A DNA stretch of 5,629 nt from Dehalococcoidia bacterium. GTDB lineage: Bacteria > Chloroflexota > Dehalococcoidia > JACPQF01. The stretch's first letter is position 1. Each line of letters opens with the position of its first letter. The translations under genes were made by a program, and so were the position numbers. The notes beneath the pieces were generated by a model, which had not been told where the DNA came from, did not search any database, and saw only the letters and a program-made list of their open reading frames with translations. The stretch is taken from the NCBI GenBank assembly GCA_030650265.1, contig JAUSEJ010000752.1, positions 1 through 5,629 on the forward strand, written 5' to 3'. This document shows positions 1 through 4,692 of this stretch, in pieces.

Positions 1-844
1 CGGTTTTCTGGTACCATTCCAGGGTCTTCTCCATCAGGGCGTAAATCCCTTCGTCGGGTACGTACTGTGCTACTTCATAGCCGAAGAGCGGATGCTTACC
101 ATGCTTGCCTCCCGCCCGAATCAGCCATCCCCGGCGAGCCACCACCATGGCGTCTACCGGACAGATCTTCACGCAGTCACCGCAGGCAACGCATTTCTCC
201 GGGTTGCGCGCAGGCAAGCCGTCCACCATCGTTAGAGCATGGTCGTCGCAGTTTCGTACGCATAGCTCACAACCATTGCAGAGGTCTTCAATTAGCTCGG
301 GTTCCACCATGCCCTGGAAACCAAGGTCCATCCCCCGGGTGCGGAAGCAGTCGATAGGGCAACCGGAGAAGGAGACCTTGAACTTGTGCAGCCCTGTGGG
401 GGTGCCAAAGTACCTCCTGTCCACCTCCAGGCAAACTTCCTGCGTATTCGTCAGTCCGTTGGGATTGTAAGAGCAGCCGCCGCAAGCTGTTGGCACTCTG
501 GCGCGGGGGCCGCACGAAGCTACAGACCAGTTTGCCGCTTTGAGCTGTTCGACGATGGCGTCGAAATCCTTGTAGTTTACGTACGGGACTTCCACTGACT
601 GGCGGACCGTCAGGTGGACCTCGCCCCGACCGTACTTATCGGCAATTGCCGCCGCTACTCGCAACTTGTCGGCGGTAACCAGACCGGCAGGACATCTCAG
701 CCTGACCGTAAACAGATCCTTTTGAACCTGCTTGATGAATCCCCCGCTCTTCAGTTCGTTGAGATTCAGCTTTGTTCGGCGAGATTCTTTTCCAAGCTCC
801 GCCTTGAGACCTTCGATTTTTGGTTCATGCCCGAACATCGTCAC
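1..844 (-). CDS. siroheme sulfite reductase (AsrC/Dsr-like small type) with 2x[4Fe-4S] ferredoxin insert, partial at the window edge
   Basis: This gene likely reduces sulfite to sulfide in the cytoplasm, with siroheme-[4Fe-4S] as the active site and electrons arriving through its own ferredoxin domain. About 281 codons are present and the 3' end is cut by the window; small sulfite reductases of this type are around 300 aa, so little should be missing. Visible order, numbered from the GTG: a nitrite/sulfite reductase ferredoxin-like half-domain at about 40-107 (RLRCPAGLVTADKLR, then HLTVRQSVEVPYV), a siroheme/[4Fe-4S] region at 111-168 (CGPRARVPTACGGC and SFSGCPIDC), a double ferredoxin domain at about 189-228 (two CxxCxxCxxxC sets: C189/192/195/199 and C218/221/224/228), and the C-terminal GGKHGKHPLFG motif. 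The GTG at 844 is preferred over the ATG at 838 because GAGG lies 8 nt upstream of it. The stop of the preceding gene is 23 nt upstream, so it is in the cysH operon. One siroheme-cluster cysteine is not in its usual place (see findings). Nitrite reduction is possible, but the cysH context favours sulfite. Confidence 0.88.
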   Translation of the reverse strand, partial: MTMFGHEPKIEGLKAELGKESRRTKLNLNELKSGGFIKQVQKDLFTVRLRCPAGLVTADKLRVAAAIADKYGRGEVHLTVRQSVEVPYVNYKDFDAIVEQLKAANWSVASCGPRARVPTACGGCSYNPNGLTNTQEVCLEVDRRYFGTPTGLHKFKVSFSGCPIDCFRTRGMDLGFQGMVEPELIEDLCNGCELCVRNCDDHALTMVDGLPARNPEKCVACGDCVKICPVDAMVVARRGWLIRAGGKHGKHPLFGYEVAQYVPDEGIYALMEKTLEWYQKT

Positions 845-867: not shown

Positions 868-1260
868 TCAGATCTGATTTGACTGCGCCGGCCAGCTCCT
901 AAGGTACGGATCGAGCTTTCCTACCGACTGACAGAGTTTCCCTTCCACTTCAAACGCGCCGAACTCAGGGCGGAGACCCCGCAAGATCAGGGACGCTTCC
1001 CGATGAAAAATGGCCGGGCCCCAGACGCCTACGTCGGTCGCCCAGGCTCCCCTGCGAAGCTCATCCGCGTAAAGGACTTCGGCCAGCCGGTCTTCTAACC
1101 AGTGAAACGAAGCATGCTTTTGTCCATCGGCTATCGTCAGAATCATGGCCTCCAAAGGGTCTAGCGCCGGTTCACCGGTGAATGCCACCTGAACCTGGCA
1201 CCAGGCGCAAGGGGCATGGCGCTCGTATATGAACGATTTGAGCCGGCGCCAAATTTTCAT
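868..1260 (-). CDS. unrecognised 130-aa protein between cysH and the sulfite reductase
   Basis: I do not recognise this family. The start is the ATG at 1260, which overlaps the cysH stop as ATGA, so translation is probably coupled to cysH; no good independent ribosome site is visible, and codons further upstream would run into cysH. The protein is soluble-looking with no membrane segment or signal peptide. It begins basic (KIWRRLKSFIYERH), then has a CAWC pair (C18, C21) beside H15, a mixed helical stretch at about 34-70 (DPLEAMILTIADGQKHASFHWLEDRLAEV broken here by position only at its ends), and a tryptophan- and glycine-containing middle (ATDVGVWGPAIF). A third cysteine is at C110. The CxxC with nearby histidines could bind a metal or take part in thiol chemistry, but this is speculation. 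Its position between two sulfate-reduction enzymes suggests an accessory role in the pathway. The 23-nt gap to the next gene holds that gene's ribosome site. Confidence 0.8.
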   Translation of the reverse strand: MKIWRRLKSFIYERHAPCAWCQVQVAFTGEPALDPLEAMILTIADGQKHASFHWLEDRLAEVLYADELRRGAWATDVGVWGPAIFHREASLILRGLRPEFGAFEVEGKLCQSVGKLDPYLRSWPAQSNQI

Positions 1261-1976
1261 GCTAGTTCTGCGACGGCCTTCAATGGTCGTGTGTGAATGC
1301 CGCACTCACCGCCGCACTTATCCGTGCCGACCCAGCGGCCGGCGCGTTCGTTTTGGTCGTTGGTGATGCGGGTGCAGGGGGAGCAACCTAGAGAGCGGTA
1401 ACCCTCCAAGTATAGGGGATTCACCGGCACCTGATGGAGGGCAAGATACTGCCATACCTCGCGTTCGTGCCACAGGAGGATCGGATTGAGCTTGATGAGG
1501 CCCTTATCACGCTCCTCGATCTCCCGATAATCGGTTCGCGTCCGTCCCTCTGTGCAGCGCAGGCCCGTCACCCAGCAGTCTACATGCATTTCCTCTATTG
1601 CTCGTCGAGTGGGTTCTACTTTTAGGATGTCGCAGCAGCGGTCCGGACTGGTTTCGTAGAGATTATCGGGAATGGCCTCGTCGTTGCGGAAGATTCGAAG
1701 CTCAGGATAGCGAGCGACTTCCTCATACATGAATTTGACAGTCTCTGCCGGCTTGAAGCGCGTGGTGACGATAAAGCCGGGAATGTTGGGGCTGACTTGT
1801 TTGGCTAGATGCCAGACCGCTACCGAGTCCTGGCCCAGGCTATTGGCTACCACCAGTCGATTGCCATACTCCTCGTAGGCTTCGCGAATCAGGCCGAGGG
1901 AGCGGTCGATCTTCTGGGCCAGATTCAGTTCGTTTACCAATTCGACGAGGTTTTCTGAGTTCGAGCTTGTCTGCAT
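1257..1976 (-). CDS. cysH: APS/PAPS reductase, [4Fe-4S] adenylyl-sulfate reductase type (CysH)
   Basis: A thioredoxin- or glutathione-dependent sulfonucleotide reductase of the PAPS reductase family (adenine nucleotide alpha-hydrolase fold) that releases sulfite from APS, or PAPS, in the cytoplasm. The 239 aa match the usual length. Seen in order: a PP-loop-like SLGQDS at 46-51, an RCCDILK motif with C114-C115, a WVTGLRCTEGRTR substrate-binding stretch at 135-147, LNPILLWHEREVWQYL at 163-178, GCSPC with C198 and C201, and the C-terminal ECGIH at 224-228 with the catalytic C225. The CC plus CxxC set is the cluster-binding signature of plant/bacterial APS reductases, so APS is the more likely substrate (family knowledge). 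The ATG at 1976 has AAGGAG 7 nt upstream. The gene follows yezD after 93 nt containing a structured element and overlaps the next gene by 4 nt. Confidence 0.93.
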   Translation of the reverse strand: MQTSSNSENLVELVNELNLAQKIDRSLGLIREAYEEYGNRLVVANSLGQDSVAVWHLAKQVSPNIPGFIVTTRFKPAETVKFMYEEVARYPELRIFRNDEAIPDNLYETSPDRCCDILKVEPTRRAIEEMHVDCWVTGLRCTEGRTRTDYREIEERDKGLIKLNPILLWHEREVWQYLALHQVPVNPLYLEGYRSLGCSPCTRITNDQNERAGRWVGTDKCGGECGIHTRPLKAVAELA

Positions 1977-2013: not shown

Positions 2014-2058
2014 AGGCCCAGATCCCTTTGGATCTGAGCCTCCAGTTGACTGGTTGGC
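2014..2058 (-). promoter_or_regulatory. two-hairpin RNA element, copy 2 (yezD-cysH intergenic, before cysH)
   Basis: In the minus-strand transcript, GCCAA is followed by hairpin P1, CCAG-UCAA-CUGG (2053-2042), and directly by hairpin P2. P2 pairs AGGCUCAGAUCC with GGAUCUGGGCCU around an AAAG loop (2041-2014): 12 base pairs with one U-G wobble, one pair longer if the flanking G and C also join. The core AACCRGNCAACUGGAGGC is shared with copy 1 at 2290-2336. P2 ends 37 nt before the cysH start. It is followed by CUUUGUAU rather than a clean run of U, so it is a weak terminator candidate at best. It may regulate cysH or protect or process the mRNA. It lies 11 nt past the yezD stop. Confidence 0.7.
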
Positions 2059-2069
2059 TTGCGGTAGGG

Positions 2070-2246
2070 CTAGCCCCTATTGTCCCGCGAAAAGCGGAGC
2101 TTCTCCGTCTTGTCTACTTGTATTATCTTGCCATCCTGAATGATGAGTTGAACAGAGCCGTACTTAATAGTCCGTATTGAGCGAAGGATCTCCCGCACGA
2201 TTTCTTCTTCGTTGTTTGAATTGATAGGCGATTGGTTGGTCACCAT
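2070..2246 (-). CDS. yezD: YezD family small protein (DUF2292), sulfur-linked
   Basis: A 58-aa protein whose core matches the YezD/DUF2292 family: EEEIVREILRSIRTIKYGSV at 13-32, then QLIIQDGKIIQVDKTEKLRF at 33-52. It looks like one helix followed by a beta hairpin, with no membrane segment and no cysteine. The family's biochemical role is unknown to me; it is found repeatedly next to sulfate-assimilation or sulfur-transport genes, and here it is the first gene of the cysH operon. The ATG at 2246 is chosen because family homology begins shortly after it. The ribosome site is modest (GGGGU, about 6 nt upstream). The reading frame is open for 21 more codons upstream, but that stretch covers the leader hairpins and has no family resemblance. 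Its stop is 93 nt before the cysH start. Confidence 0.88.
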   Translation of the reverse strand: MVTNQSPINSNNEEEIVREILRSIRTIKYGSVQLIIQDGKIIQVDKTEKLRFSRDNRG

Positions 2247-2263
2247 CAAATTACCCCATAGTT

Positions 2264-2277
2264 GAGGATGAATCCTC
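2264..2277 (-). promoter_or_regulatory. small hairpin enclosing an AGGAGG in the yezD leader
   Basis: The transcript reads GAGGAUUCAUCCUC, which folds as a 5-6 bp hairpin around UUCA. Its 5' arm is part of an AGGAGG that looks like a strong ribosome site but is about 26 nt from the yezD ATG and within the stem. It may modulate ribosome loading, or be chance. Confidence 0.4.
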
Positions 2278-2289
2278 CTAGTACAAGAC

Positions 2290-2336
2290 AGGCCCGGGCT
2301 CAAAATCAAGCTCGGGCCTCCAGTTGTCCGGTTAGC
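2290..2336 (-). promoter_or_regulatory. two-hairpin RNA element, copy 1 (yezD leader)
   Basis: In the minus-strand transcript, GCUAA is followed by P1, CCGG-ACAA-CUGG (2331-2320), and directly by P2. P2 pairs AGGCCCG with CGGGCCU, then has an A-C mismatch and an inner GCU/AGC around a U-rich loop (2319-2290). Compared with copy 2, P1 keeps pairing with A-U changed to G-U, and P2 differs in most positions but stays paired. The element lies about 28 nt after the predicted transcription start and ends 43 nt before the yezD ATG, similar to the 37 nt in copy 2. There is no U-tract after P2, so a classical terminator is unlikely. Confidence 0.72.
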
Positions 2337-2356
2337 CAGAAATAGTTGAGTAAGTG

Positions 2357-2370: not shown

Positions 2371-2399
2371 TTTATATCACATATTATGGCGCTTGTCAA
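2371..2399 (-). promoter_or_regulatory. sigma-70 promoter of the yezD-cysH-sulfite reductase operon
   Basis: On the minus strand, TTGACA (2399-2394) is a full-consensus -35 box, followed by a 17-nt spacer and TATAAA (2376-2371), a 5/6 match to the -10. Transcription would start near 2364, giving a leader of about 118 nt before yezD. The region is markedly more AT-rich than the flanking genes. Confidence 0.85.
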
Positions 2400-3420: not shown

Positions 3421-4692
3421 TTAGTAGTTTTTCAGAACCACCGGCAAATAGATCTTATATCCACCTTCCTCGTTAGGCCGGTAGCCCTGGCCAATGGCAA
3501 CACTGGCGCCGCTGGCCCTCACGGTTGGGCTGACAGTGGATGTAGCCGTTAATGTAAGAGTCTCCCGGATCGTGTCGCCGGTCGAAAGCGTGGGCGTGTA
3601 GACAGCAAAAACATTCGCCAGGCCGGCGTAGGGAAAAGAAGCATCGGCGGGTCCGGTGGCGACGGTGAAGGGCAGACCGGCAGTCGGGATTATTTGCGTT
3701 TGCGTCCGATAGTAGTATTTGTAGTCCCAGGCTTGTGGGGACGATGCCGTGATGGTGAATGTGCGCGTCACTGCGTCGTAGTTTTGGAGACAGAGCGTAT
3801 GGGTGAACGGCACGTTGGCACTGATTTCCTGAACGATGGACGGAGATTGGAGACCATCGAAGCTACACCAGGCGCCAAATCCCACGAGCGGATTGTTGGC
3901 CGGCAGGGGCCAGACTTCGGCGTTTAGCGCCGATTCAATAGGGCCTATGAATGTGTAGCCGTTATAAAGTGCATAGCCGACAGATCTACCAAATGCGTTT
4001 GCGCTATTGGCGCCCGCGCCGAAGTACATGAAGTAGTGGATCGACAGCGCAGTCGGAAATTCGTCTTTGAAAGCGAAGGTAGAGTTCGGGATAGGGAGAC
4101 TGTCACCGGGCGGGATCCGCCATACTTCCCAATGCGATTGCCCGTCGGTGCCAAATTGGGACGTGACCGCGGCTTCGTAAGTTACCCAGCGAGTGAACGT
4201 TATGGGCACGGAGGTCACCGTCGATGTTAGAGGCGGAGAGTAGTAGTTGAGAGTGACGGACATGCTGACCACCTGGCTTGCCTGGCCGGCGAGTTCGGGG
4301 ACTCGCATGGCGAAGTAGCCATTGTCTGCAAGTTCGTTCAGGAAATCCGGCACAGGTTGTACGTCTGCGCTAGGAGACGGCGAAAACCAGCCAGAAGACC
4401 TGGACGTCATGGCCGGCGAATAGACACCCGTCATAGCAATGTCAGCGTACACCCCCATGGCGTTGTCGGCGACCGCCGGCCCCACCCGTGTCTGGATCTC
4501 CGGGCCGCTGACGTGAGGACTAAGGTAAGCGAGAAGTATGCTGCACCCATCGCCAAATAGCGGGCTACACCCGCTGCCGATAAACAAGTACAGAGCCATC
4601 GCAAAAACCGAAACAAAAACAAGGAACTGACCGTAGATCTTCGCCTTCGCGCTTCGTATTCCTTGCCCCAGGGATCGCAGCAAAAGGTTCAT
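3421..4692 (-). CDS. secreted or membrane-anchored beta-rich protein with C-terminal IYLPVVLKNY motif
   Basis: A 423-aa extracellular protein of unknown function. The N-terminus is basic (R6, R13, K16, K18), followed by a hydrophobic segment at about 20-39 and GSGC with C42. This could be an uncleaved anchor, a signal peptide, or a poor lipobox (G at -3 is atypical). The middle (about 60-270) is rich in Ser, Thr, Pro, Tyr and Phe. C276 and C301 could form a disulfide. Residues about 285-402 look like an Ig-like beta-sandwich with alternating Thr and Val (IRETLTLTATSTVSPTVRAS). The last ten residues, IYLPVVLKNY, follow a short polar linker; I associate this ending with many secreted Anaerolineae proteins. 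The ATG at 4692 has AAGGAGG 5 nt upstream. The downstream neighbour is lgt, 28 nt away, probably co-transcribed. No enzyme motif is seen, so a role in adhesion or the cell surface is only a guess. Confidence 0.8.
   Translation of the reverse strand: MNLLLRSLGQGIRSAKAKIYGQFLVFVSVFAMALYLFIGSGCSPLFGDGCSILLAYLSPHVSGPEIQTRVGPAVADNAMGVYADIAMTGVYSPAMTSRSSGWFSPSPSADVQPVPDFLNELADNGYFAMRVPELAGQASQVVSMSVTLNYYSPPLTSTVTSVPITFTRWVTYEAAVTSQFGTDGQSHWEVWRIPPGDSLPIPNSTFAFKDEFPTALSIHYFMYFGAGANSANAFGRSVGYALYNGYTFIGPIESALNAEVWPLPANNPLVGFGAWCSFDGLQSPSIVQEISANVPFTHTLCLQNYDAVTRTFTITASSPQAWDYKYYYRTQTQIIPTAGLPFTVATGPADASFPYAGLANVFAVYTPTLSTGDTIRETLTLTATSTVSPTVRASGASVAIGQGYRPNEEGGYKIYLPVVLKNY

Follow-up and report, generated by a model that had tools for sequence, protein, structure and literature searches.

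Analysed here is the whole stretch of 5,629 nucleotides (the window) of contig JAUSEJ010000752.1 from a Dehalococcoidia bacterium (Chloroflexota). Its minus strand encodes yezD (DUF2292), cysH (3'-phosphoadenosine-5'-phosphosulfate (PAPS) reductase), a small open reading frame (ORF) and a nitrite/sulfite reductase, and carries a short RNA element twice, before yezD and before cysH. A first-pass annotation of the sequence had noticed the two copies and described each as two abutting hairpins, P1 and P2. On re-reading the sequence, the shared core and the P1/P2 layout of both copies were found as claimed, as were the distances from P2 to the ATG (37 nt for the cysH copy and 43 nt for the yezD copy). 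The positions given were essentially right, with the block reaching further 5' (AGCCAA and GGCUAA), so that the copies span 2059-2014 and 2337-2290. Both hairpins are present; what had been overlooked is a third helix, P0, that competes with P2. The inner stem of P2 in the yezD copy, put at 3 bp, has 4 pairs on folding, including one G-U. The observation itself is confirmed and both copies are real, not a chance repeat; a pair of 18-mers with at most 2 mismatches within the same 424 nt was found in 0 of 60 dinucleotide-preserving shuffles of the window, and each element, folded by itself, is more stable than its shuffled versions (z -4.3 and -3.6). The caution with which the observation had been put forward is apt. 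The features are as follows, with the basis of each in brackets (MFE, minimum free energy).

2014 to 2059, minus strand: element copy before cysH, whole P0-P1-P2 unit (sequence)
2056 to 2059, minus strand: 5' strand of P0, AGCC, cysH copy; partner GGCU at 2037-2040 (P0 covariation)
2042 to 2053, minus strand: P1 hairpin CCAG-UCAA-CUGG, cysH copy (3/4 pairs in the MFE fold; covariation)
2037 to 2040, minus strand: GGCU, 3' strand of P0 and 5' arm of P2, cysH copy (sequence; P2 MFE pairing in relatives)
2014 to 2041, minus strand: P2, terminator-like hairpin, then CUUUGUAUAU, cysH copy (terminator scan, folding)
2290 to 2337, minus strand: element copy before yezD, whole unit (sequence)
2334 to 2337, minus strand: 5' strand of P0, GGCU, yezD copy; partner GGCC at 2315-2318 (covariation)
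2320 to 2331, minus strand: P1 hairpin CCGG-ACAA-CUGG, yezD copy (covariation; absent from the single-sequence MFE fold)
2315 to 2318, minus strand: GGCC, 3' strand of P0 and 5' arm of P2, yezD copy (sequence; P2 MFE pairing in relatives)
2290 to 2319, minus strand: P2 hairpin of 7 + 4 bp and one mismatch, with a weak U-tract, yezD copy (folding)
2070 to 2246, minus strand: yezD (DUF2292, OscA-like), proposed trans-acting partner (ATG at 2246; PF10055, 59.5 bits)
1257 to 1976, minus strand: cysH, PAPS/adenosine-5'-phosphosulfate reductase domain (ATG at 1976; PF01507, 141 bits)
2 to 844, minus strand: nitrite/sulfite reductase, open at the window edge; final gene, within the window, of the putative sulfur operon (PF03460, PF01077)
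2371 to 2399, minus strand: sigma-70-like promoter of the yezD operon, TTGACA (2399-2394), 17 nt, TATAAA (2376-2371) (by eye)

Architecture and covariation of the element

In related copies the consensus reads GGCU-GA-CCAG-NCAA-CUGG-A-GGCC and begins 5' of the core recognised at first. Its first four bases form P0 with the four bases after the A, and these latter bases also open the 5' arm of P2; the P0 pairs of the window are AGCC/GGCU (cysH copy) and GGCU/GGCC (yezD copy). Because the 3' strand of P0 is the 5' arm of P2, P0-P1 and P2 are mutually exclusive. The two strands of P0 change in step between copies, for example to GACU/GGUC, GACC/GGUC (L081, L094; L and G numbers are our handles for loci and genomes), UACU/GGUA (L149, L172), UGCU/GGCA (L151, L171) and GUCU/GGAC (L157), and P1 occurs as CCAG/CUGG, CCGG/CCGG, CUAG/CUAG, CUGG/CCAG, CUUG/CAAG and CUGA/UCAG. 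Our copy table holds 48 copies, some of them identical; outside it stand the divergent L175 and the copies of L103, L117, L162, L165, L167, L179, L183, L184, L190, L191 and L193-L200. After leaving out L177 (10-nt loop) and five copies with an AU linker (L155, L156, L157, L159, L178), 42 aligned cores, 40 of them distinct, were used to count covariation, one of the checks that the first-pass annotation had proposed. P0 and P1 together have 96.3% paired cells (85.4% in shuffles) and a covariation score of 0.416 (0.212 in shuffles, with 0/500 as high), and shifting the register by 1-3 columns gives no score above 0.159. For example, P0 pair 3-25 is G-C in 34 rows and A-U in 6, with no mismatches, and P1 pair 9-20 is C-G in 21 rows, U-A in 18 and U-G in 1. 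P1 of the yezD copy rests on comparative evidence because its own MFE fold lacks P1 as drawn. The element is thus a three-helix structure with covarying P0 and P1, in which P0 and P2 exclude each other.

P2 as a likely terminator

The two copies had been judged not to be ordinary terminators for want of a good U-tract. This is too strong for the cysH copy, whose 14-pair P2 is followed by the tail UUGUAUAUCA, and fair for the yezD copy, whose tail GUCUUGUACU is weak; in most relatives P2 does look like an intrinsic terminator. A simple scan flags the cysH-copy P2 as terminator-like, a listing that proves nothing alone because the scan yields 6 in the window vs. 5.2 in shuffles. As in an attenuator, the antiterminator helix overlaps the terminator arm, all four P0 3' bases being paired in the P2 MFE fold in 45 of 48 copies, and an apparent intrinsic terminator lies downstream, with T at four or more of the 8 positions 3' of the P2 stem in 39 of 48. 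The other nine copies lack a T-rich tail; four of these (L083, L093, L163, L164) are near a ribosome-binding site, where P2 may control translation. The median MFE is -7.9 kcal/mol for P0-P1 vs. -21.4 kcal/mol for P2.

The terminator-like P2 of most copies could suggest that these are ordinary terminators after yezD with a chance likeness to one another, or a dispersed repeat, all the more as our element scan has a background of ~1 chance match per 100 kb and a recurrent phage coding sequence fits the loose DNA pattern used on viral contigs. Against this stand the covariation of P0-P1, its conservation across phyla and the presence of only 1-3 copies per genome in the genomes read. The dispersed repeat is rejected on this last count, and the explanation as a whole is hardly credible.

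Linkage of the element to yezD

Two draws of genomes were searched, 343 genomes of one class (class draw) and 400 Chloroflexota genomes (phylum draw). A strict pattern matched 13 places in 12 of the 343 class genomes; GGCUGA and P2 were recognised by eye in five of the twelve (G004, G016, G035, G039, G054), all five of which have yezD. With yezD in 20/343 class genomes, its link to these five element genomes has p 4e-7, and p 1.3e-5 when all 12 strict-pattern genomes are used (yezD in 6/12). Chance strict-pattern matches without GGCUGA or P2 were dropped by eye (L032, L034, L035, L037-L039, L041). Seen from yezD, a clear element is present in 16 of the 20 class-draw yezD genomes and lies directly 3' of yezD in 15 (three times in G001); the two elements of G035 are located elsewhere. 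Element calls beside yezD in Chloroflexota, in the satellite-phage readings and in the first actinobacterial readings were made by eye.

For the phylum draw, an RNA model (R1) was built from eight training copies, to which G004 alone of the phylum-draw yezD genomes contributed. Ranked by E-value, the 400 genomes were headed by G004, G092, G394 and G405, then G596 and G118, then G599. A separate protein-family search found yezD in exactly five of the 400 (G004, G092, G394, G405, G599), so that the carriers of yezD are R1 ranks 1-4 and 7 (p = 3.8e-7 without the training genome); the matches in G596 and G118 fall in coding sequence, as judged by eye. In G394 and G599 the element does not adjoin yezD, and the G394 contig stops 12 nt past the gene. 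This search used stricter filters; of its 30 loci (L043-L072), 17 were read (L043-L059), and by eye L047, L048 and L050-L059 do not hold the element. In an earlier set of 37 genomes, yezD was present in 9/9 element genomes vs. 4/28 others, and three of those four (G001, G003, G008) were later found to carry the element. Among the matches read, no clear element was found in a bacterial genome without yezD. Among the genes downstream, cysH, TauE, CysH-like and NMT1/SsuA-like genes were recognised from their family or by eye. The covariance model and the genome scan thus bear out the proposal of a conserved structured element of sulfur operons, possibly protein-binding.

Other features were seen next to yezD in these loci. 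An Rrf2-family regulator gene lies directly upstream of yezD in L040 (831-1292), and operator-like sequences (CTGACTAAATCRGTAGG) were recognised by eye at yezD promoters (upstream of yezD in L091 and L160). In the Chloroflexota loci L162, L165 and L167, yezD is followed by a P1-like hairpin, GACCAGACCACUGG, from which the AGGC block is absent.

The element in other bacterial phyla

In Actinomycetota, yezD is present in 13/217 genomes. A first, narrower scan gave element-like matches in 7 of the 13 yezD regions (shuffles, 1.3 per 20 regions) and one chance-looking match (L202). The scan was widened after some actinobacterial loci had been read by eye, and in this form finds the element in 13/13 regions (3-16 kb), with 17 matches where 30-nt block shuffles give 0.44 on average. 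It lies directly 3' of yezD in five regions, in two of these as a tandem duplicate. The scan misses both copies in the window, which have AA, not GA, as linker; applied to 216 kb of CysH loci, it returned 5 matches, 3 of them real by eye. Planctomycetota carry yezD in 7/149 genomes; two of the seven regions are scan-positive, one probably by chance, and more variants were seen by eye. In Cytobacillus spongiae, a plasmid operon has the order S-adenosylmethionine (SAM) riboswitch, yezD, element, cysH, transporter, sat, cysC and nitrite/sulfite reductase, and its element carries a T-rich tail. The riboswitch is of the SAM-I type (RF00162; L098 3805-3910) and, because it precedes yezD, control by SAM and control by the YezD element would be arranged in series. 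Tandem element pairs were seen 3' of yezD in L179 and L183, with the in-step P0 changes CGAUC/GAUCG and CGGUU/GACCG.

The position of the element just after yezD raises the question of whether ribosomes finishing yezD choose between P0 and P2 by themselves, YezD binding no RNA. Such translation-coupled attenuation in cis would suit Cytobacillus and many satellite phages, where the stop codon of yezD abuts P0 or overlaps it. It sits badly with the window's yezD copy, G035, G394, G405 (2/3), G599 and several Actinomycetota, in which no yezD frame enters the element, and with gaps between yezD and the element of up to ~60-120 nt in L046 and L160, and we regard it as quite unlikely.

Satellite phages keep the pair without annotated sulfur genes

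Viral contigs scanned with the loose pattern yielded 47 loci. By eye, about 40 of these (within L099-L145) belong to a single unrelated phage coding sequence that recurs, TTTGCTGACTGGNCAAACAGAGGC, and that can mislead searches relying on the pattern alone; L116, L135 and L137 have no P2. In L105, L106 and L117 the element lies over or beside the stop codon of a YezD-like gene. With the L105 and L106 proteins as queries, tblastn returned 67 and 90 records, all from Streptococcus satellite phages. Among 20 satellite-phage loci examined, the element directly follows the YezD-like gene in 19 (five with an AU linker and one with a 10-nt loop), and L175 has a divergent form. In many of the loci a replication gene, encoding a primase, a replication protein or a helicase loader, is annotated upstream. 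Most of the genes downstream are hypothetical; in 4/20 loci (L148, L151, L156, L171) they include an annotated portal, terminase, capsid or minor capsid gene. The 20 stretches have no annotated sulfur gene. The association with sulfur genes stands as far as bacterial sulfur operons are concerned, and the satellite phages indicate that what the element tracks is yezD, not sulfur metabolism in itself. One element-bearing, satellite-phage-like contig also contains a DUF3800-I RNA (RF02969; L106 6216-6336).

These phages bear directly on the possibility that P0-P1 is a very small riboswitch that senses a sulfur metabolite itself, yezD being merely one of the genes it controls. The neighbours of the element are often sulfur assimilation genes or NMT1/SsuA-like and TauE transport genes, and terminator and possible translational versions coexist, as they do among riboswitches. 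The strongest argument for a protein partner instead of a sulfur metabolite is that satellite phages keep the YezD-like gene and the element with no annotated sulfur gene; in addition, the bacterial matches read include no clear element in a genome without yezD, and, for an aptamer, the loop is very small, as is the internal loop. A riboswitch is therefore unlikely.

The YezD protein

The YezD of the window scores 59.5 bits against DUF2292 (PF10055; gathering cut-off 22 bits), the sole Pfam family matched. Against the NCBIfam OscA model (NF033785) it scores 34.7 bits (1.3e-8), below the curated equivalog cut-off of 85 bits; YezD is a homologue of OscA. Residues G30, Q43, K49 and R51 are invariant in alignments of 22 and 56 sequences. 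The predicted fold is one helix and a beta-hairpin, for which no informative PDB match was found, and a second comparison with VIA-align likewise gave no useful match. Of the YezD-like proteins of viral contigs, that of L105 (9379-9579) scores 25.6 bits against PF10055 and that of L106 (4349-4516) 19.3 bits, below the cut-off; both resemble PBSX XtrA (PF17356), again below the Pfam cut-off. OscA is described as a small protein whose function is unknown; its involvement in the response to sulfur starvation and in resistance to chromate was reported in 2009, and oscA and a sulfate-binding protein gene form one transcription unit, which is overexpressed after chromate exposure (PMC3596284; PMC2996968). 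The passages on OscA in these two papers from which we draw mention no RNA element.

A proposed antitermination mechanism

The co-occurrence and linkage of the element with yezD in several lineages lead us to propose, with a probability of roughly 0.6, that the element is an attenuator resembling a ribonucleic antiterminator (RAT), in which YezD holds the antiterminator hairpin P0-P1 and so allows read-through into the downstream genes. The nascent RNA would fold either as P0-P1 (NNCU-GA-P1-AGGNN) or as P2, the bases after the conserved A being common to both. P2 would end transcription and, in some relatives, perhaps impede ribosome binding. P0-P1 would emerge first and, because it is weak by the median MFE given above, would need a factor to hold it, for which YezD, encoded directly upstream in most cases read, is the best candidate. 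Bound to P0-P1, YezD would block invasion by P2, and RNA polymerase would continue into the sulfur genes. The amount of YezD would carry the signal, which in bacteria is probably sulfur starvation (cf. the Rrf2-type regulator by yezD in L040 and the SAM riboswitch in Cytobacillus), and at the window copy before yezD the protein would promote its own synthesis. In satellite phages, the YezD-like protein would open the downstream module by the same read-through.

The sign of the effect could be the opposite, with YezD binding P1, favouring P2 and exerting negative feedback on its own operon. The sequence leaves the sign unfixed and the position beside yezD suits autoregulation; however, P2 is already far more stable than P0-P1, so that termination needs no helper, and the conserved, covarying part, P0-P1, would be left without a role. 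We consider this variant as doubtful as attenuation by ribosomes in cis.

Several observations weigh against antitermination by YezD. G101, G290 and G325 retain just a P1-like hairpin 3' of yezD; G047, with a weak family member, has no element 3' of yezD, and G012 (outside the class draw) has yezD and no clear element. Most Planctomycetota yezD regions are scan-negative, and no element was found in the stretches read around two Priestia plasmid, one Paenibacillus and two Novosphingobium yezD genes. In L036, L049, L073 and L074 the element precedes genes without a recognisable sulfur link, and the viral-contig copy in L103 (9554-9574, minus strand), complete with P0, P1 and a terminator-like P2, lies among listed ORFs that include no yezD. 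As to the covariation of P0-P1, tests of this sort are inflated by kinship among the sequences, further pair types are the same as in shuffles (11 vs. 11.2), and the outermost P0 pair is open in 12/40 rows.

Relation to known systems

In RAT elements of the LicT/BglG type, a short hairpin overlapping the 5' arm of a terminator is stabilised by an RNA-binding protein. The present element is alike in its short hairpin over the terminator 5' arm, in the proposed stabilisation by a small protein and in its place beside the genes it would control. It differs in the sequence and size of the hairpin, and the candidate protein here is a 50-70 residue DUF2292 protein without CAT-RBD or PRD domains, which matches just PF10055 in Pfam and NF033785 in NCBIfam. 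By analogy, the element seems to work most like a RAT attenuator, yet outside the LicT/BglG family. In ANTAR-regulated leaders, too, a pair of adjacent hairpins precedes a nutrient-assimilation operon, and a terminator shares the second of them; there the protein family is another one, and the first hairpin of our element has the additional P0 that overlaps the terminator. The SAM-I riboswitch (S-box, RF00162) shares the sulfur operons and terminator control, but the element has no Rfam match and SAM-I sits separately upstream in Cytobacillus, so that identity with SAM-I is rejected. Among small phage-borne proteins, PBSX XtrA (PF17356) and PHROG 1551 are similar to the YezD-like proteins at the C-terminus.

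The first-pass annotation had been unable to assign the element to a known riboswitch, and this holds at the Rfam gathering score. Rfam 15, searched with the window at E up to 10, gave four rows, three of them off the copies; the fourth, TCV_H4 over the cysH-copy P2 on the opposite strand (20.9 bits vs. a gathering score of 50), is taken as chance. In 17 further loci searched at the gathering threshold (S-box, T-box, NMT1 motif, sul1 and others) the element positions were likewise unmatched. No description of the element or of a YezD mechanism was found among the open PMC papers listed by our searches, which does not in itself prove absence from print.

As for the remainder of the window, the closest relatives of its CysH in our search are from Chloroflexi metagenome-assembled genomes. 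A promoter scan that demands T at position 6 omitted the yezD-operon promoter. Between cysH and the sulfite reductase gene lies a 145-residue ORF (868-1305, minus strand), and a 423-residue ORF, possibly exported, lies at 3421-4692 (minus strand); neither has a Pfam match.

Significance

We also lean, somewhat less firmly, towards the wider idea that DUF2292/YezD/OscA proteins, with their relatives in phages, make up a new family of very small antiterminators that bind RNA, each with its own 24-nt hairpin, mostly just 3' of the gene. They would act in sulfur-scavenging operons in at least three phyla, and in satellite phages they would mediate the passage from the replication genes to the downstream (packaging) module. 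The finding suggests for the OscA proteins a specific molecular function that experiments can test, with an RNA as its target. Were it true, it would represent a protein-RNA antitermination system far smaller than LicT or ANTAR, account for an unnamed RNA element common to several phyla and provide a candidate gene-expression switch for streptococcal satellite phages.
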